DNA from: Teredinibacter turnerae
GTDB lineage: Bacteria; Pseudomonadota; Gammaproteobacteria; Pseudomonadales; Cellvibrionaceae
Direction: 5' to 3'
DNA: 64,000 nt
Assembly: GCF_037935975.1 (NCBI RefSeq)
Contig: NZ_CP149817.1
Location: forward strand, 1,302,001-1,366,000
Below, piece by piece: positions 5,906 to 15,191 of the stretch. A program made the position numbers and the translations under genes. Position 1 is the first letter of the stretch. Each line of letters begins with the position of its first letter. Below the pieces are notes generated by a model. It saw only the letters and a program-made list of their open reading frames with translations. It searched no databases and was not told where the DNA came from.

Positions 5906-8900
5906 TTAGAACTGATACCCGAAACCTATTCCCAGCGCTGTCGCGCTGGTTTCGTCCAATTTAAAATATTGGTAACTCACATTCACCGAGAGGGCTTGAT
6001 AATTTAACTGAATTCCCAAGCCACCCCATGGGTCCAGCCCCTTTTGTTCCCCTTCTATATCACTTTGGCCAACGTGAATTTTTGAGCGCCAGTAATAAAG
6101 TCCCGCATCGGCATAAATCGTAAACGCAGAGTGCAGGTCGTAGTGGAGTCGGGCATTGGCGGTGACACCTTTGCCCAGGTGAGGGTAAGATTCCTCCAAC
6201 GCCTTGGATACAATCTCGTCATCCTCGTCCAGGAAGCTCAGCTCTGTGTCTGCCTTGCCCAGATCCAAGTAACCAAACATGGATGAAACATAAGGTGTAA
6301 AAGTGTGGCCTACATTGATGTGGTAGCCGTTGGACTTGGCATCGTAGTTCAGTACCGTTGTTTCCACCCCATTCGCCGTCATGGTGGCCGCGTAGTCGCC
6401 GGCGCTCTGCTGTGATTCGCTCTTAACAACAGTTGCGTTTACAAAAAACGTTTCCGGTTCGTAGGCTTGTGCTGGGGCAGGAGCCGTTCCAATCAGGCCG
6501 CCAGCCAGCAGTATAGCCAGCGGCAGACTGCGGCTGACTTTTACACGTCGTCCCATCGCCAGCAGCGCAATCAGAAGCAGCAAAACACCGCTAGTGGCAC
6601 CACCGCCAGTTTTGATGGTGCGGCGTTTTTGCGTTGCTACTGCGCCTGGATCAGAAACGCTACCGTTCACCTCGCCATCGGCATCGTTGGGTCCACCATC
6701 TTCAATGGTGAGCTGCACACACCAGTGACCTTCGCTAAGCCCTGGCTGCCAGGCGCTGTCACCGGGTGGTGGGCAGAAGCCTTCAGTACCTGCGGTCGAG
6801 TGCAACAGGTTGTTGGCATCCTCGACAAAATTGCGCCACTCGCCATTTTGAAATTTACGGTACAACGCATTCGCAGGAATTGGAGCGATTTGCGGAATCA
6901 CCACCGAAGTGCTGCGCCCGGCTTCGGGCAGGTCCGCCAGTTCAAAGTCAAAAATGCCTGAGCTGTTGAAGTGAGTGTCCTCGTTGAAGTCGCTGAGGTC
7001 AGATCGCTCATCTTCCAGCAATCGCGCACCGCTACTCGGCGTCTGGATGGAAAACTCGCCGAGGCGGCAGCGTACCCCGGGATCGCACTCAATCAGGAAT
7101 GAGTCGGTCTGACGCGCTCGCTCGGGAAGCACGTTGGTCGCAGTGATGTTATCGAGATAATCGGCGATACCGTCGTCATCACTGTCGGCGGTACCTTCGG
7201 TTTCATCGTCAATACCGTCGTTGTCGGTGTCGTCCGTTGCCAAGAGCTGGGGCAAGCTCTGTACTACCACAAAGTGCAGTACGGCGGTGTTGCTGCTACT
7301 TGCGCTATCCGTGGCTTTGGCTTTTACTTTGTAGCGGCCGCTGGCGAGGTCTGCGGGGGAGAATGTCAGTACCGTTGGTGTGGCGCTGGTATCGTTCAGG
7401 GCGCTGTCAGTTCCGCTCCAGTCGATACTGTGGGTATCGTTAGGATTGGGGTCGACAACGGCACTTGTGACCGTAACCTCGCCACCGTTGGGCGTCACCT
7501 GGATGGTCTGTTTGCCTGCTTGACGCAGGGTAAGTGTCAGCTTGGGCGACACGTTGCGTTCAACAATGGTGAGTGCGAATGCGGTTTTCGCACCAGCGTT
7601 AATATCGTAGATATCAGCGTCGAAACCATCACTCAGGTCTTCAGTTTCGCTGGTACGATCATCCAATTGTACGCGCAGTACTTCATCGTTCTCAGCCGTG
7701 GTATCTGCCAGGGTGCGGATCGCGACAGAAATCTCGGTTTGCCCCTCACTAAATACAACGCTGGATGGCACTGGCTCATAGTCTGTATCTGTGGCTGTAG
7801 ACGAGGTATCGATCATTAGAGGTACTTCGAACGGATAGCGGATAGCGGGGCCGTTCAACAGCACCTGAAAGCTTGCGGTTGCACCTTCCACAGATGTCTG
7901 ATCTTTACTCAGGCTCACCAAAGGTCGCACAAACACGGTTTGGGTAACCTGGCTGCTGTTGCCCATAAAGTCTTCAGCGGTCCATTGGATGGCATGAACA
8001 CCTGGTCGCAACTGATAGCGTCCGTCAGTTATGCCTTGTGGTGCGGCGTTGCAGCAGCCATCGCCATTCACATTGTCGGTTACCAGCGCAGCAACGGCCT
8101 CGTCGACCTCTGCTTGGGTTGCATCCGCAGATAGTGAAAGCAGCTGCGCCAAGGTTACCCGGGTGAACAGACCGGTCGCATCCACAATAATATCTGACGG
8201 AGCGAGCAGGTCTGGCGGCGTCAAGTCGAGATAGTCCAGCGGGTCGTTCGGGTCGGTACCATCGAGCTGCTCCTGGTAGTCGCTGATGGTGTCATTGTCG
8301 GTATCGACATCGGCGAACACCTCCACAGTAAACGCTGTGAGCACGGTAGTATTAACGCCGTCAGACACGCTTAACGTGATGTTGTCATAGGCGCCGATGT
8401 CGCCGCTGGTTGGCGTGCCGGACAAACTTCCGGTGGCGCTGTCGAATGCCATCCAGGCGGGTAGGTTCTGCACACTGAAGCTGAGCGTGAACAGGCTGTC
8501 CGCATTCGTCACGGTTGGCGTGAAGGCGAATGCCTGGCCTTCGATGATGTCCTCCGCCGGCGTGCCGGAAATGACCGGTGTCGAGCCAGGTACAAATGTC
8601 AGGGTGACTGTTGCGGTGTTTGAGCTCTCTCCATCGTTGTCTGGCACAGTGTAGCTGAAGCTATCTCCATCAAGCGGCGTAATACCCCCATTGGGGGTGT
8701 AGCGCAATGTGCCATCGTTGTTGTTGCTTAAGGTGCCTTGAGCGGGCGCAGCCACCACGTTAATACCCGCCGCGTCCAGGCTGCCATCGATATCGGCATC
8801 GTTTTCCAGCACCACCAGGTCGCTGGCGCTTGCGGCGAGGATGCTGAAGCTGTCGTCAGCGGCTTTAGGCGCGTCGTTAACCGGGTCAACGGTGAGCGTT

Positions 8901-11900
8901 ACAGTTGCGGTGTTAGACACTGTGCCCGCGTTATCGGCCACGGTGTAAGTGAACGTATCGCTGCCCACGAAGTTATCCAACGGCGTGTACAGCACCTGGC
9001 CATTGTCCACCACAGCAATGCCGGACGTTGCGTTGGTCTCAATCAGCAGGGTTGCAGGTGCCAGGGTGCCGTCCACATCACTGTCGTTACCGAGCACATT
9101 GATGGTGAGACTTGCATCCTCTAACAGTCGCACAGTGTCGTCGTTGGCCTGTGGTGCGTCGTTCACGCTGTTGACTGTTATAGAAACGGTTGCTGCTGCA
9201 GATACGTCGCCATCATCATCGGCGACAGTGTAGGTGAAGCTATCGCTGCCGAAGTAGTTGCTGGCGGGCGTGTAGTTCACCGTGCCATTGCTGGCAACAC
9301 TCGTCGTGCCGTGCATTGGTGGCGTGGCGATTGCGACGCTGCTGGGGACCAAAGATCCGTCTGGATCAGAGTCGTTGCTGAGGACGGCGATGGTTACCGG
9401 TGTATCCTCATCTGTGGTGGCAGAATCGTTGACGGCACTGGGCGAGCTGTTAGGGTCGATCACGCTTATGGTGACCGTTGCCGCGTTGGAGCTGAGGCCA
9501 TTATTGTCGTCAATGGTGTAAGTGAAGCTGTCGTCGCCTAGATAATCCGTGGTTGGTGTATAGCTAACACTGCCGTTAACCACCTGCGCGGTGCCGTGCG
9601 ATGGCGCATTTACGACGCTCACGCTCGCGGTATCCAGACTGTCGCCCACATCAATATCTGAATCATTTGCTGCCACATCAATCGTGACGGGGGTGTTGAT
9701 GTCGGTAGACACCGCGTCAGCGACTGCGACAGGCGCATCGTTTACCGCGGTAATTGTGATCGACACCAGCGTCGAGGCAGAGGTGTCGCCGGTCGTATCC
9801 TGCACGGTGTAGCTGAAGCTATCCACACCGTTAAAATCTGCGTTCGGTGTGTAGGTGATATTGCCGTTGGCTGTATTAACGCTGGCCTGACCGTTACTGG
9901 CAGCCGCGACAATCAATACGCTGGCGGCATTGATGGTATCGTCCAGGTCAACATCGTTGGCCAGTACATCCACTGTTACCGGAGTATCCTCATTGGTTGT
10001 GGCGGCATCGGCTGTGGTGTCGGGGGCGTCGTTCTGTGGCGTCACCGTGATCGCAAACGTTTGTGGACTGCCGGTGTTGTCCAGTGCATCGGTCAGCGTA
10101 AAGCTGAAGCTGTCGCTGGTGCTTTCGCTGCCGTCGTGGCTGTATTGAATGTTGCCTTGTGTTATTTCCGTCTGATAAAAGCTGCTACCGGCGCTGAGTG
10201 CGACACCGTTGCGACGCAGATTTCCATTCACAGGGCTACCGCTCAGAGAAATCAGGATATCTGCTGCGGCAGTGGTCTGATCAGTCGCCGCAAGCAGGCT
10301 GGTGCTAATGGTGGCGCTGGCGCCTTCATCCAGGGTCAGGCCCGCGTTGGTGGCGAGTACTGGCGCAACTGAGTCTATGGTAAATGCGCTCAAGTTGAGC
10401 TGCGTGCTCAGGTTTCCGGCGCCGTCACTCACGCTAACGGTGCAATTGCTGTAAGTGCCGTCCGTCAACGCGCTGCTGTTATCTGGCTGGGTAAGTGTGA
10501 TGGTTTGGGTTCCCGCGCTAATGCTGCCTTCCGCAGCGCTGCCACAACTACCACTCACTGCTAGGGTGCCTGCTTCGCTTAACAACAAACCTACATCCGG
10601 CGTCGCGTCGCTGGTGGGCGTGGCCACTGCGGTCACCTCGGCGATGGTTGGTGGCGTGGTGTCGACAGTAAATTGTGCAAGCGCCAATGCGGTGCTGCTG
10701 TTGCCGACGCTATCGGTCACAATCACAGTGCAGTCGGCGTATGTTCCATCGCTCAGGCTGCTGCTGTTGTTGGTGGCGGTGAGGGTGATGGTGGTGTTGC
10801 CGCTACTGATCACGCCAATGTCGCTGCTGCCGCAACTGCCGCCGACCGCAAGCGTGCCAGCCTCTGAGCTGGAGAATGTCAGGCTCGGGGTCGAATCCGT
10901 ACCCAGGCTCGGTACGGCGGTTACCACTGCCAATATCGGCGCGCTGGTGTCGACAGTGAAACTGCTGATATTGAGTTGGCTGCTGGCGTTGCCCGCGGCG
11001 TCGGTGAGTATCGCCGTGCAATCGCTGTAGGTGCCATCCACTAAATTGGCGGACGCTGACGAGTTGAGCAGCGTGACACTGTTGTTGCCTGCACTCAGAG
11101 ATGGGCTGCTGCCCAGGCCACAACTTCCGCCGATAGCCAGGCTGCCGGCTTCGGATGCTGCGACCACTAATGTCGGTGAGTTGTCGTTGCCTGGTGTTGT
11201 CACTGGCGAAAATTCTGTGAGCGTTGGCGAGGTGCGATCAACCGTAAAGCTGCTTAAAGAGAGTGGCGGGCTGGCGTTGCCCCCTGCGTCGGTAGCGGTA
11301 ATCGCACAGTCGCTATAGGTGCCTTCGGTGAGGCTGGTGCTGTTATCTGGCTGGGTGAGCCGCAAGCTGATATTTCCTGCGCTCACACTGCCTGCATCCA
11401 GGCTGCCACAACTGCCGGAAAATGCCAGTGTCCCGTCTTCCGAAATGCTGACCACCACACTTGGCGTTGTTGCATTGGTGGCACTCGCCACGGCAGTAAA
11501 CTCCGTGAGCGAGGGTGCGAGGGTGTCGACCAGCACCGAAGTCAAGCTGCCTACACTGGCGAGCGTGGTGCTGATACTGTTGCCCGCGCTGTCGGTTATG
11601 GCGCCGCTGTTCAAGTCCAGCGAACCATTTAAGGAAATGCCATCGCTGTCGTTAAGGCCAGACTCAACAGAGTAAGAAAAAACCAGTGACGAGGTACCCG
11701 AGCCGGAAACATAGCTGGCGTAACGTGTAGCTGCGCCAATGGTCATTGCCAGCCGCGGCGTGCCGCCTGAGGTGTTGACTACAACCGTGTCGTCCAGATT
11801 AACCACGAAGCTAAGCGTGTCGCTCAAGCCATAGGTATTGTTGACTGGCACGGACACCGAAGTAACAGCCGGTGCGGTGGTATCGATAGTGACACTCAAA

Positions 11901-14329
11901 CCTGCCGATGCCGCCGATGTATTGCCTGCAATATCTGTCACGGTGCTGGTGATTGTGTGCGCCCCTTGAGACAGGGTTGATGCGGTAACCGTCCAGTTGC
12001 CGCTGCCGTCAACGGTTGCCGAGCCAATACTGCCATCCAGAGACGACTGCAGGCTCAGCAGCCCGTTTGCTTCAGCGGTGCCGGTGAATTGTGGTGTTGT
12101 GTTCGACGTCAGATCGTCCGAACTCGAGGTGCCGAGATCGCTCGCAGCGGCGAGATCCGCGGTGGATGGCGCTGATGGCGCGAGGGTGTCGATAAGGATG
12201 CTTAAACTGGTTGAGGAACCGGAAGTATTTGTCGCCTGATCAGTTGCCGTCGCGGAAATCTGATGCGCACCGGCGCTGAGCGTTGACGCGGTCACCGTCC
12301 AATTGCCGCTGCCATCTGCGGTTGTACTCCCAACAATGCCATCCACGTTGGAAGACAGAGTGATTGTTGCGCTGGCCTCGCTGGTACCCGTGAAGCTCGG
12401 TGTGGTATCGGCTGTAGTGTTGTCGCTGTTCGAGCCGCCAGTATCACTGCCAGCCTGCATATCTGGCGTGGAAGGGTTGGCGGGTGCAGTGGTATCAACA
12501 ATAAACGTGCTGAGTGCCAACGGACTGCTGGCGTTACCTGCGCTATCTGTCATTGTTAGCGTGCAGTTCGTGTAGGTCGAATCGGCTAGCGGTGTGCTGT
12601 TATCCGCTTGTGTTAGCGTAATTGTATGATTGCCCGTGGCGCTGATCGTTGTCGATGTACTGGTGCCGCATAAACCGCCGACGGAGAGGGTGCCTGCTTC
12701 GTTCGTCGAAAAGGTCACGTTGGGCGTGGCGTCGTTGGTTGGGCTGACGACTGGTGTCACCTCGCTCAACACCGGCGCACTCGCATCGACTGTAAAAGAG
12801 TTGATGGCCAGCGGAGTACTGCTGTTGCCGGAAGAATCCTGAACCGTGACCGTGCAGTCGCTGTAAGTGCCATCTGCCAAGGGGGTGCTGTTGTCGGTTT
12901 GGGTCAAGGTAATAGTGTTGGACCCGGAGCTTATTGCCCCTTCGTCAGAGCTGCCGCAAGAGCCGCCGACAGTCAGAGTTCCCGCTTCATCCGTGCTGAA
13001 GGTGTAGTCTGGTGTCGAGTCCGTTGTGGGCGAGGGTACCCCGGTGACAGCGGTTAGCGTCGGTGCAGTTGCGTCAGGGGCTTGCAGGTTATCGACGGTG
13101 AACGAGGCGATAAGGAAATAACGGTTGTTGGGAGCTGTGCCCTGATACTTAACCACAAACCGCGATAACGCCTTGCCCGCGCCAAAGGTTGAGGAAACAT
13201 CGACGGTGTCCACGTCCCCGTAGCCGCAAAAGGTGGTAGGCGTTGCCACGGTTACATTCTGGGTTCCGGCTGAAGAGTTGTTGGGGTAATAACCTTCAAT
13301 AGTGACGTTTACCGAAATGTCCGATGCGGTGCAGCCCGATTCTCCCACGGAAAGCTGCAAGGTATTGAGTTCGAAGGTGCCTACGTTGGTGCCGTCGGCG
13401 GCAATTTGCAGAGTTTTACCGTAAAGCCCGGAGCCTGCAGATGCATAGAGGTAGCCGTAACTGGCACCACCGTTTGCTGCTGAGACCCTACCGCCAAGGT
13501 TGGTAGCATCAAAATTACCGTCGCTGGTCGATATCACTGTCTGGTAGTAATAACTTGCTGGTGTGTTGTCGTTATAAAGCTGCAGCCCTGTGTATGTTTG
13601 TGGAGCCAGCACGCCGGAGAAATCTCGCAGCGCCTGCTCACTGAAAGGCGTTTGCGCGGTAATGTCTCCGCGGGCTATTTCAAGGTCCCAGTCACCGTCA
13701 TTCGCTGTGTTGCCGGTGAGGTCTGCGGAAGCTGCAGTGTCGAGACCAGTGGTATTACTCACCAGCTCCAGAAAATCTTCGCCCTCTGCGCTCGCGGCAA
13801 AATTACAACCGTACAACAAAAAGTCGCCACCTGCGTTTACCGCATGCTCCAACGCAGCGAATAATTCAGTTGTTTCACGCAGGTCTGTTGCTGGAATTTC
13901 CCGACCCGCGAGCTGTAAATGGCCACTGCTGCCGTGGCTGAATAAATGTACTGCGTCTAAATGCTGGTACTTAGCGAGAATTTCGACAAGCTGTGTTACG
14001 CCATCCTCACCAGGAACAATCTCTGCGACGGCTACTCCCGGCGCGATACCGTTGAACAAGGTCTGCTTGTCTTGCACTGCAGAGTCAATGATCACCAGCT
14101 CTCGCACCGGGCTGCCGTGCGTTAACACTGGCTCGTTCGTGTTCAACGCGTCGGGCGAATAAGGGGCAGCGACAGAGTGCGCCTTGTCGTTTGACCACAG
14201 CAGGGCGGCCTGTTGTGGTGTTTGTGCCCGCGCATTGCGCTGGTAGGTGTTGGCGTAGCTCCCTGTTGCCGCGTAGGCGGTGAACGGGAGAAGTATCGAG
14301 GTAATTCCTTGTGCGAGAAAATGTTTCAT
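5906..14329 (-). CDS. Giant DUF4347/Ig-cadherin repeat surface protein with internal sorting tail and C-terminal beta-barrel
   Basis: About 2,807 residues; ATG at 14329 (an in-frame TTG lies at 14335). Order: signal peptide (~1-22, ending AYA); DUF4347 (~75-240, with H-L-F-S-H-G-S-S-G and LLYGCNFA); a beta domain; about nine Ig-like repeats (~410-1390) typified by E-A-G-T-L-x-V-x-G-S-C-G and D-G-T-Y-S-D-C; a cadherin-like segment; five NDAP...NEDTPVTVDVLANDxD repeats (~1500-1960); a putative-Ig domain; calcium-binding D-x-D-x-D-T-I-S-D-Y type repeats; a Calx-beta domain; and a choice-of-anchor-U-like region with ECDPGVRCRLGE. Near residue 2577 comes GGGATSG, a hydrophobic stretch and GRR, resembling a GlyGly-CTERM sorting tail. 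It runs directly into a second signal peptide (ending APAPAQA) and a ~185-residue OmpA/OMP-type beta-barrel ending in F. Likely exported and cell-surface; probable roles are adhesion or carbohydrate contact (inferred). It lies 46 bp downstream of the sulfotransferase gene. Confidence 0.9.
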   Translation of the reverse strand: MKHFLAQGITSILLPFTAYAATGSYANTYQRNARAQTPQQAALLWSNDKAHSVAAPYSPDALNTNEPVLTHGSPVRELVIIDSAVQDKQTLFNGIAPGVAVAEIVPGEDGVTQLVEILAKYQHLDAVHLFSHGSSGHLQLAGREIPATDLRETTELFAALEHAVNAGGDFLLYGCNFAASAEGEDFLELVSNTTGLDTAASADLTGNTANDGDWDLEIARGDITAQTPFSEQALRDFSGVLAPQTYTGLQLYNDNTPASYYYQTVISTSDGNFDATNLGGRVSAANGGASYGYLYASAGSGLYGKTLQIAADGTNVGTFELNTLQLSVGESGCTASDISVNVTIEGYYPNNSSAGTQNVTVATPTTFCGYGDVDTVDVSSTFGAGKALSRFVVKYQGTAPNNRYFLIASFTVDNLQAPDATAPTLTAVTGVPSPTTDSTPDYTFSTDEAGTLTVGGSCGSSDEGAISSGSNTITLTQTDNSTPLADGTYSDCTVTVQDSSGNSSTPLAINSFTVDASAPVLSEVTPVVSPTNDATPNVTFSTNEAGTLSVGGLCGTSTSTTISATGNHTITLTQADNSTPLADSTYTNCTLTMTDSAGNASSPLALSTFIVDTTAPANPSTPDMQAGSDTGGSNSDNTTADTTPSFTGTSEASATITLSSNVDGIVGSTTADGSGNWTVTASTLSAGAHQISATATDQATNTSGSSTSLSILIDTLAPSAPSTADLAAASDLGTSSSDDLTSNTTPQFTGTAEANGLLSLQSSLDGSIGSATVDGSGNWTVTASTLSQGAHTITSTVTDIAGNTSAASAGLSVTIDTTAPAVTSVSVPVNNTYGLSDTLSFVVNLDDTVVVNTSGGTPRLAMTIGAATRYASYVSGSGTSSLVFSYSVESGLNDSDGISLNGSLDLNSGAITDSAGNSISTTLASVGSLTSVLVDTLAPSLTEFTAVASATNATTPSVVVSISEDGTLAFSGSCGSLDAGSVSAGNISLRLTQPDNSTSLTEGTYSDCAITATDAGGNASPPLSLSSFTVDRTSPTLTEFSPVTTPGNDNSPTLVVAASEAGSLAIGGSCGLGSSPSLSAGNNSVTLLNSSASANLVDGTYSDCTAILTDAAGNASSQLNISSFTVDTSAPILAVVTAVPSLGTDSTPSLTFSSSEAGTLAVGGSCGSSDIGVISSGNTTITLTATNNSSSLSDGTYADCTVIVTDSVGNSSTALALAQFTVDTTPPTIAEVTAVATPTSDATPDVGLLLSEAGTLAVSGSCGSAAEGSISAGTQTITLTQPDNSSALTDGTYSNCTVSVSDGAGNLSTQLNLSAFTIDSVAPVLATNAGLTLDEGASATISTSLLAATDQTTAAADILISLSGSPVNGNLRRNGVALSAGSSFYQTEITQGNIQYSHDGSESTSDSFSFTLTDALDNTGSPQTFAITVTPQNDAPDTTADAATTNEDTPVTVDVLANDVDLDDTINAASVLIVAAASNGQASVNTANGNITYTPNADFNGVDSFSYTVQDTTGDTSASTLVSITITAVNDAPVAVADAVSTDINTPVTIDVAANDSDIDVGDSLDTASVSVVNAPSHGTAQVVNGSVSYTPTTDYLGDDSFTYTIDDNNGLSSNAATVTISVIDPNSSPSAVNDSATTDEDTPVTIAVLSNDSDPDGSLVPSSVAIATPPMHGTTSVASNGTVNYTPASNYFGSDSFTYTVADDDGDVSAAATVSITVNSVNDAPQANDDTVRLLEDASLTINVLGNDSDVDGTLAPATLLIETNATSGIAVVDNGQVLYTPLDNFVGSDTFTYTVADNAGTVSNTATVTLTVDPVNDAPKAADDSFSILAASASDLVVLENDADIDGSLDAAGINVVAAPAQGTLSNNNDGTLRYTPNGGITPLDGDSFSYTVPDNDGESSNTATVTLTFVPGSTPVISGTPAEDIIEGQAFAFTPTVTNADSLFTLSFSVQNLPAWMAFDSATGSLSGTPTSGDIGAYDNITLSVSDGVNTTVLTAFTVEVFADVDTDNDTISDYQEQLDGTDPNDPLDYLDLTPPDLLAPSDIIVDATGLFTRVTLAQLLSLSADATQAEVDEAVAALVTDNVNGDGCCNAAPQGITDGRYQLRPGVHAIQWTAEDFMGNSSQVTQTVFVRPLVSLSKDQTSVEGATASFQVLLNGPAIRYPFEVPLMIDTSSTATDTDYEPVPSSVVFSEGQTEISVAIRTLADTTAENDEVLRVQLDDRTSETEDLSDGFDADIYDINAGAKTAFALTIVERNVSPKLTLTLRQAGKQTIQVTPNGGEVTVTSAVVDPNPNDTHSIDWSGTDSALNDTSATPTVLTFSPADLASGRYKVKAKATDSASSSNTAVLHFVVVQSLPQLLATDDTDNDGIDDETEGTADSDDDGIADYLDNITATNVLPERARQTDSFLIECDPGVRCRLGEFSIQTPSSGARLLEDERSDLSDFNEDTHFNSSGIFDFELADLPEAGRSTSVVIPQIAPIPANALYRKFQNGEWRNFVEDANNLLHSTAGTEGFCPPPGDSAWQPGLSEGHWCVQLTIEDGGPNDADGEVNGSVSDPGAVATQKRRTIKTGGGATSGVLLLLIALLAMGRRVKVSRSLPLAILLAGGLIGTAPAPAQAYEPETFFVNATVVKSESQQSAGDYAATMTANGVETTVLNYDAKSNGYHINVGHTFTPYVSSMFGYLDLGKADTELSFLDEDDEIVSKALEESYPHLGKGVTANARLHYDLHSAFTIYADAGLYYWRSKIHVGQSDIEGEQKGLDPWGGLGIQLNYQALSVNVSYQYFKLDETSATALGIGFGYQF

Positions 14330-14375
14330 AAACAAGCTCAGGTTTTAGTCGCTAAAAATATTGAGGGTATTTGTA

Positions 14376-15191
14376 TTATCGAGGGGCGATAGTGCTGGCG
14401 GCGGTGCCGGTTGTATCCTGCCAAAAGGCCATATCCTGGTATTTGGTAAACAGATCCGGCGGTAACAGGCTGCGCCTGGGCGAAAACTCCACTTTGCGCT
14501 GCACCGTATGTAAGTCGCGCACCCCAAGTTGTTGATCGAATTCGGTTGCCTCGTATTCCACATTGTCAAAATCGTGCTGATAAAAATCTTCGCCGATAAA
14601 CTGGTATAGCAGCTCCAGCGTGCGGCTGGGATGCTGGGTGAGCAGTTGATAGTCGACTAGAAGCAAACGATCAGAAAAATCGCCGTAATAGGCCTCCTTC
14701 AGTGCCGTCCAGGCTCCGCCCAATGTGCCGTTTGCGCTGGCGAGCGTTTCACAGCGTGAGTAGACGGTGGCGCGATTGCCAGCGGAGAACATGCGGCTGT
14801 AATCGAAAGGGTTCTTGCGATGAATACGTTCAAAGCTGTCCATAATCCAGGCGGGGTTACGCACGCAGCAAATTACCTTAAAGTCGCCGAACAGTTCGAC
14901 CAGTTGGTGCAGGCGTGCAGTCCATGCGCGACTGGTATCAAAAATAATCGGCGGATTTTCCTCTTCGGCGTAGTAAGCCTCAAATAGACTTTTACACAAG
15001 CGCTTGCGCTTATCGGCATTGAAAAAAGAATAAAACTCGCTTCCTGCGCCTGTTTGTTCCAGGATGGAATTCATTAAATTGGAGACAGGGCTGCTCATTG
15101 CAGCGTGGAATCGGGGATTTTGTCGCAACAGGCCCGCGAGCAGGGTCGAACCTGATCGTGGCAGACCCGAAATGAAGTGAAATTCAGACAC
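14376..15191 (-). CDS. Sulfotransferase family protein
   Basis: 271 residues, GTG start at 15191. The N-terminus has the sulfotransferase PAPS-binding P-loop (FISGLPRSGSTLLAGLLRQNP, residues ~6-26). VICCVRNPAWIMDSFERI (~109-126) is the 3'-phosphate-binding region with Arg and Ser. These enzymes transfer sulfate from PAPS to hydroxyl groups of carbohydrates, lipids or tyrosines. No signal peptide, so it is cytosolic. It lies 46 bp upstream of the giant surface protein gene and on the same strand, and downstream of the tail-collar, formyltransferase and methyltransferase-like genes. This suggests a joint role in making or modifying a surface product, though the acceptor is unknown. Confidence 0.85.
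   Translation of the reverse strand: MSEFHFISGLPRSGSTLLAGLLRQNPRFHAAMSSPVSNLMNSILEQTGAGSEFYSFFNADKRKRLCKSLFEAYYAEEENPPIIFDTSRAWTARLHQLVELFGDFKVICCVRNPAWIMDSFERIHRKNPFDYSRMFSAGNRATVYSRCETLASANGTLGGAWTALKEAYYGDFSDRLLLVDYQLLTQHPSRTLELLYQFIGEDFYQHDFDNVEYEATEFDQQLGVRDLHTVQRKVEFSPRRSLLPPDLFTKYQDMAFWQDTTGTAASTIAPR

Follow-up and report, generated by a model that had tools for sequence, protein, structure and literature searches.

A giant gene of Teredinibacter turnerae with an internal GlyGly-CTERM-like tail: a probable precursor of a surface protein and an OmpA-like barrel

Why would a sorting tail of the kind described at the extreme C-terminus lie inside a protein, ahead of a second signal peptide and a beta-barrel? 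The question is raised by the giant gene of the window, by which we mean the whole 64,000-nucleotide stretch of Teredinibacter turnerae DNA analysed here (contig NZ_CP149817.1, positions 1,302,001 to 1,366,000). The gene corresponds to an ORF on the minus strand, 5906-14335, coding for 2809 amino acids. The preliminary description had placed GGG at residue 2577 (first base 6607) and an internal Met, residue 2594, at 6556, and these coordinates are exact. With a probability of a little more than three in four, we take the gene to encode a two-protein precursor (polyprotein) that would be cut by rhombosortase and signal peptidase I to give a surface protein and a barrel. The parts of the ORF are collected in Table 1. 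The Ig/cadherin-type domains of the giant surface part do not cover it continuously. The choice-of-anchor U domain matches NF041766 with 39.7 bits in the full protein and 53.3 bits in a fragment (cut-off 32).

Table 1. Parts of the giant ORF of the window, from the N- to the C-terminus (all on the minus strand)
Part	Residues	Window coordinates	Basis and remarks
N-terminal signal peptide		14270..14329 (-)	MKHFLAQGITSILLPFTAYA in the translation, by eye; likely start ATG 14329, extent approximate
DUF4347 domain	80-243	13607..14098 (-)	Pfam PF14252, 172.3 bits
Giant surface part: Big_9, Big_13, cadherin-like, tandem-95 repeats, He_PIG, Calx-beta		6962..13606 (-)	Pfam and NCBIfam
Choice-of-anchor U domain, directly before the sorting tail	2459-2567	6635..6961 (-)	NCBIfam NF041766
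Internal GlyGly-CTERM: GGG and hydrophobic helix 1	2577-2579 (GGG), 2580-2594 (helix 1)	6554..6607 (-)	TIGR03501
Basic loop GRRVKVSRS, predicted cytoplasmic	2595-2603	6527..6553 (-)	Sequence of locus L023
Internal signal peptide: hydrophobic helix 2 and APAQA	2604-2624	6464..6526 (-)	Read in the sequence
OmpA-like barrel, predicted second product	2625-2809	5909..6463 (-)	OMP_b-brl, OmpA_membrane; AlphaFold2 model; Foldseek

The GlyGly-CTERM-like character claimed beforehand for the internal tail agrees with the profile search, in which TIGR03501 (GlyGly_CTERM) matches the window tail with 15.9 bits, narrowly above the cut-off of 15.5 and weakly at a per-genome E of 0.219. By arithmetic, 215 residues follow helix 1, so the tail lacks the extreme C-terminal position of this class. 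The second signal peptide ending in A-P-A-Q-A, also proposed earlier, is borne out as a sequence pattern: the basic region GRRVKVSRS, the hydrophobic core LPLAILLAGGLI and APAQA, with small residues at -3 and -1, have the composition of a type I signal peptide. YEPETFF follows directly after APAQA, its Tyr being residue 2625 with the codon from 6463 (by arithmetic). The claim of an OMP-type barrel ending in F holds as well, since the last residue of the 2809-aa protein is Phe and the barrel is matched by OMP_b-brl (PF13505, 47.9 bits) and OmpA_membrane (PF01389, 31.8 bits). The AlphaFold2 model of residues 2403-2809 (26 aligned sequences, mean pLDDT 81.9) consists of a beta domain, a poorly defined junction of low confidence and a barrel starting just after APAQA. 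Foldseek gives OmpA as the best match of the barrel model, then Ail and OmpX, with autotransporter barrels lower. By profile and by predicted fold the domain is an OmpA-type barrel of eight strands, as we group the ten strand elements that DSSP assigns after the junction.

Three other giant ORFs of the same genome (G000), of 2984, 2392 and 3223 aa, carry the same succession of GG, helix, basic loop, helix and barrel, making four with that of the window; behind the barrel, two of these three have an OmpA-like extension (by eye). Ordinary terminal GlyGly-CTERM-like tails are also present in this genome (L013, L015 and L017, with one more in an ORF of locus L003 by eye), as are rhombosortase (contig C1, 5219767-5220231; 139.2 bits, cut-off 84), signal peptidase I (154.9 bits) and the type II secretin (T2SS, 574.8 bits). 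An E. coli genome searched as a control has no rhombosortase above that cut-off. As for the surroundings of the giant gene, a Sulfotransfer_3 gene lies directly upstream (14376-15191, minus strand), and an ORF with the same motif is found beside the fused giant gene of locus L090 (G138), which suggests a conserved neighbour. Also near the giant gene is a phage tail collar domain gene (PF07484; 15553-16140, minus strand); an ORF resembling it by eye lies downstream of a tail-ending giant gene in G017 (L060).

If a sorting tail lies inside a chain and a signal peptide comes after it, two cuts are expected, and with them two exported proteins. In our preferred reading, the giant surface protein at the N-terminal side would be exported by Sec until helix 1 of the internal tail stopped the transfer, with the basic loop remaining in the cytoplasm, and helix 2 would restart export for the barrel as a second signal peptide. 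Rhombosortase would cut at the Gly-Gly motif, after which the surface protein would be processed like ordinary GlyGly-CTERM proteins, probably through a lipid-like modification and then type II secretion. A cut by signal peptidase I after APAQA would free the barrel for insertion into the outer membrane, and a hairpin of about 45 residues would be discarded. Surface protein and barrel would then be released 1:1, the barrel probably anchoring, receiving or partnering the surface protein. We infer the two cleavages, the topology and any interaction of surface protein and barrel from the anatomy of the protein, and the mechanism draws on GlyGly-CTERM processing in Vibrio cholerae as set out in PMC13393428. 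The preliminary description had left three options side by side. Gene fusion stands, and a tail cut to yield two partners appears to be the best mechanism; the third, an internal start at 6556, fares poorly, as discussed below.

The architecture of surface protein, junction and barrel in one ORF is real and widespread. A comparison of split and fused relatives had been suggested for this locus, and both forms exist, with 82 fused and 11 split loci. The fused loci come from 62 gammaproteobacterial genomes (32 of the family, 22 others of the order and 8 others of the class), the genome of the window among them. A profile made from the window tail and a paralogue had matches in 58 of 144 family genomes (E ≤ 1e-6), and the loci that we read are a part of the matches listed. 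The family accounts for 45 fused loci in 32 genomes, again counting the window's own. Two helices are present in 44 of them and absent in L086, where the join runs through a single hydrophobic stretch; the net charge of the loop is at least +2 in 43 of the 45 as scored (median +4). A second profile, A2, which favours finding fused tails as it was built from 31 of them, had matches in 126 of the 390 genomes of the order at E ≤ 1e-6 and, at the stricter E ≤ 1e-10, in 65 of the 369 genomes of the class, many of those listed being a barrel alone. The order search added 29 fused loci, of which three belong to family genomes included above, and the class search eight. An assembly frameshift, raised beforehand as a possible source of the fusion, is excluded by the recurrence of this open junction elsewhere, G136 for instance having a copy with 93% identity. 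None of the homologues among the loci read has a junction that is clearly a plain linker. GG is not clear at the fused junction of L133, L134 and L151. In L127 (G321), the fused form has extra sequence, perhaps a domain, between helix 2 and the barrel.

The motifs of the junction were counted by one rule throughout, two hydrophobic segments with a basic loop, which scored 79 of the 82 fused loci; L005, L141 and L145 escaped it despite showing the two segments to the eye, and for L086 it picked up a spurious pair. As controls we took 271 hairpins from the remaining ORFs of these loci and of the window. A GG motif precedes helix 1 in 75/79 fused loci versus 35/271 control hairpins, and a signal-peptidase-like motif, its pattern chosen after the family data had been seen, follows helix 2 in 61/79 versus 69/271. 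Both occur together in 57/79 fused loci versus 6/271 controls. Since the fused loci are mutually related, p-values overstate these differences. Bare AxA after helix 2 does no better than shuffled sequences in the family loci (21/45; shuffle mean 15.4, maximum 25). The pattern AxA or [ASTV]QA, set post hoc, is found in 35/45 (shuffle mean 16.7, maximum 25) and is weaker in the later loci (26/36; shuffle mean 16.9, the top of 2000 shuffles also being 26). At E up to 10, internal tails match TIGR03501 as often as terminal ones do (13/31 internal versus 6/21 terminal or split tails).

Rhombosortase scores over its cut-off in 57 of the 62 genomes with a fused locus, namely 30/32 in the family and, among 40 genomes searched in a second round, 27/30 outside it. 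The exceptions are G030 and G457, which lack a clear rhombosortase and are drafts listed with 7 and 5% contamination, respectively, and G126, G321 and G152, which have sub-cut-off relatives of fitting size. Ten of the 11 split genomes, all but G398, are also over the cut-off. Within the family the contrast with the other genomes is modest (30/32 versus 77/112; Fisher p 0.002, ignoring kinship), and the protease is so common there (107/144 genomes) that its co-occurrence with the fusion is weak. Gene adjacency is more telling. The rhombosortase gene lies directly downstream of the fused gene on the same strand in G821, G486 and G354, and in G152 a sub-cut-off relative is convergent beside it. 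A compact fused gene of 691 aa is the one next to rhombosortase in G821. By listed coordinates, the two genes are non-adjacent in the other 58 of the 62 genomes.

These data bear on the possibility of one cut only, in which signal peptidase would free the barrel while the surface protein kept helix 1 as an inner-membrane anchor or was cut elsewhere. The signal-peptidase-like motif is well supported, GG could be a feature that flanks helices, and some tails do without it. Against this stand the excess of GG over the control hairpins, the relatives that terminate at the same tail and the four genomes in which a rhombosortase or its relative adjoins the fused gene, and we consider a single cut unlikely.

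Split and barrel-less relatives offer a further view of the junction. In the eleven split loci (L053-L058, L124-L126, L114 and L115), a tail of helix and basic residues closes the surface ORF, and the next gene codes for the barrel with its own signal peptide. A GG motif is present in these surface tails except in L055, L056 and L124 (3 of 11). Surface and barrel genes overlap by ATGA in L055, L056 and L058 and are separated by 14-nt gaps in L053 and L054. Genus g118 has both arrangements, fused in G481 and split in G512 and G275. Other relatives (L059-L067, L069, L080, L130 and L131) end at the tail, and we saw no barrel in the ORFs that follow them; six have another C-terminal end in place of the tail (L068, L070 and L072-L075). 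In a tree of 75 anchor domains (49 fused, 8 split, 12 terminal and 6 other), fused, split and barrel-less forms interleave, and the fused state changed at least 12 times, four of the changes being forced by starred branches; gains and losses are not distinguished. The fusion is evolutionarily labile.

Some of these relatives deserve separate mention. The six with another end are choice-of-anchor U relatives that terminate in a ...VTYQF-like sequence, followed in some cases by small lipoprotein-like ORFs; rhombosortase is over the cut-off in G011, G069 and G095 from this set and not in G072, G093 and G098. L059, L060 and L061 of G017 are three giant paralogues within about 25 kb, all ending at a GlyGly tail, and the genus to which G017 belongs (g9) has the fused form in 14 of the 16 genomes read. 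In L155 (G694), the surface ORF has a Cys-containing GGGGGGC tail, perhaps another type of sorting tail, and a barrel match lies beyond the stop.

An uncut fusion, with helices 1 and 2 as a permanent inner-membrane hairpin and one chain spanning inner membrane, periplasm and outer membrane, has to be weighed against this distribution. Direct covalent linkage does occur: in L149, L153, L157 and L158, which together with L086 are the related barrels joined without a two-helix junction, the matching barrel is attached directly, the GG motif, the helices and the signal peptide all being absent, and a covalent form may therefore be functional as well. In this group a rhombosortase over the cut-off is found in three of the four genomes (not in G615), and its presence is thus no guide to the junction. 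An uncut chain for the window protein is nevertheless very improbable, given that the same pair exists as separate genes, the barrel having its own signal peptide, and that the junction is modelled with low confidence and, outside GGG and a basic residue, is gappy in the alignment of fused tails.

Separate production of the barrel by internal translation from ATG 6556, beside the full-length protein, seems hardly credible. A Met is indeed placed there and a signal peptide follows it, 12/45 fused family loci combine a start codon and an SD-like motif in the region, and start codons of split relatives overlap the stop of the surface gene. However, no Shine-Dalgarno-like sequence was seen before ATG 6556, the equivalent region contains ATG in only 16 of the 45 family loci and any start codon in 30, and an internal start leaves the open frame across the junction unexplained. 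The least credible reading is that the C-terminal barrel carries the N-terminal passenger across the outer membrane: the domain order and the giant passenger recall an autotransporter, but type Va was rejected on account of eight strands (our own grouping of the model) instead of a 12-strand translocator and of the two helices between passenger and barrel, the barrel is also found as a separate gene, and the autotransporter NalP comes 20th in Foldseek with a query TM-score of 0.20, behind OmpA, Ail and OmpX.

Among known systems, the two-cut precursor favoured here resembles GlyGly-CTERM/rhombosortase (TIGR03501 and TIGR03902; VesB and RssP of V. cholerae; PMC3237569) in the Gly motif, the helix, the basic cluster and the protease in the genome. 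The known tail stands at the extreme C-terminus, whereas the window tail is internal, with a further export signal and a barrel behind it. The choice-of-anchor U family (NF041766) is alike in that its domain lies just before the anchor in the window protein and in 21/21 terminal or split relatives, which were found with a profile containing this domain; it differs in that the window anchor is followed by another protein. The closest concept is NF033207, midcut-by-XrtH, by name a mid-protein sortase cut. The likeness is seen in L173, where a signal peptide, a helix, basic residues, a second helix, AQ and a C-terminal domain follow one another. Most matches over the cut-off are, however, in ORFs of about 160-230 aa, and the family is named for an exosortase. 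Matches of NF033207 exceed the cut-off in 8 of 143 family genomes, with none in the T. turnerae genome at E ≤ 0.01; against the 31 fused tails of A2 the profile gives one weak match (best E 0.025), and no barrel was seen in the four midcut-by-XrtH ORFs read. The NCBIfam name suggests that its curators have something similar in mind for an exosortase, and literature with the word "midcut" was unrelated by title. The matches L173-L176 (genera g14 and g25) have a two-helix middle and then a C-terminal stretch, a similar topology under another protease name. Two proteins also arise from one chain in the cytochrome b/c1 precursor FbcH of Bradyrhizobium, in which signal peptidase cuts an internal signal peptide; these are inner-membrane respiratory proteins, with no sorting signal and no second protease.

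None of the matches listed in the literature searched describes an internal GlyGly-CTERM by its title or the start of its abstract. The architecture is most likely a new variation on the GlyGly-CTERM/rhombosortase system, an internal sorting signal in a bacterial polyprotein. Reports of bacterial envelope proteins made as polyproteins and divided by the cell's own proteases are, to our knowledge, few. Because tails of the GlyGly-CTERM class have been described at the C-terminus, their internal use would escape annotation confined to protein ends. Fused and split forms link giant GlyGly-CTERM surface proteins to OmpA-like barrels, a lead on what these proteins attach to at the outer membrane. 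It is likely, in our estimate, that an internal sorting signal serves Gammaproteobacteria as the junction of a polyprotein, at which rhombosortase and signal peptidase I would release a surface protein and its dedicated barrel 1:1, with repeated interconversion between the fused gene and two-gene operons, and where rhombosortase is encoded next door, the fused gene may supply its main substrate.
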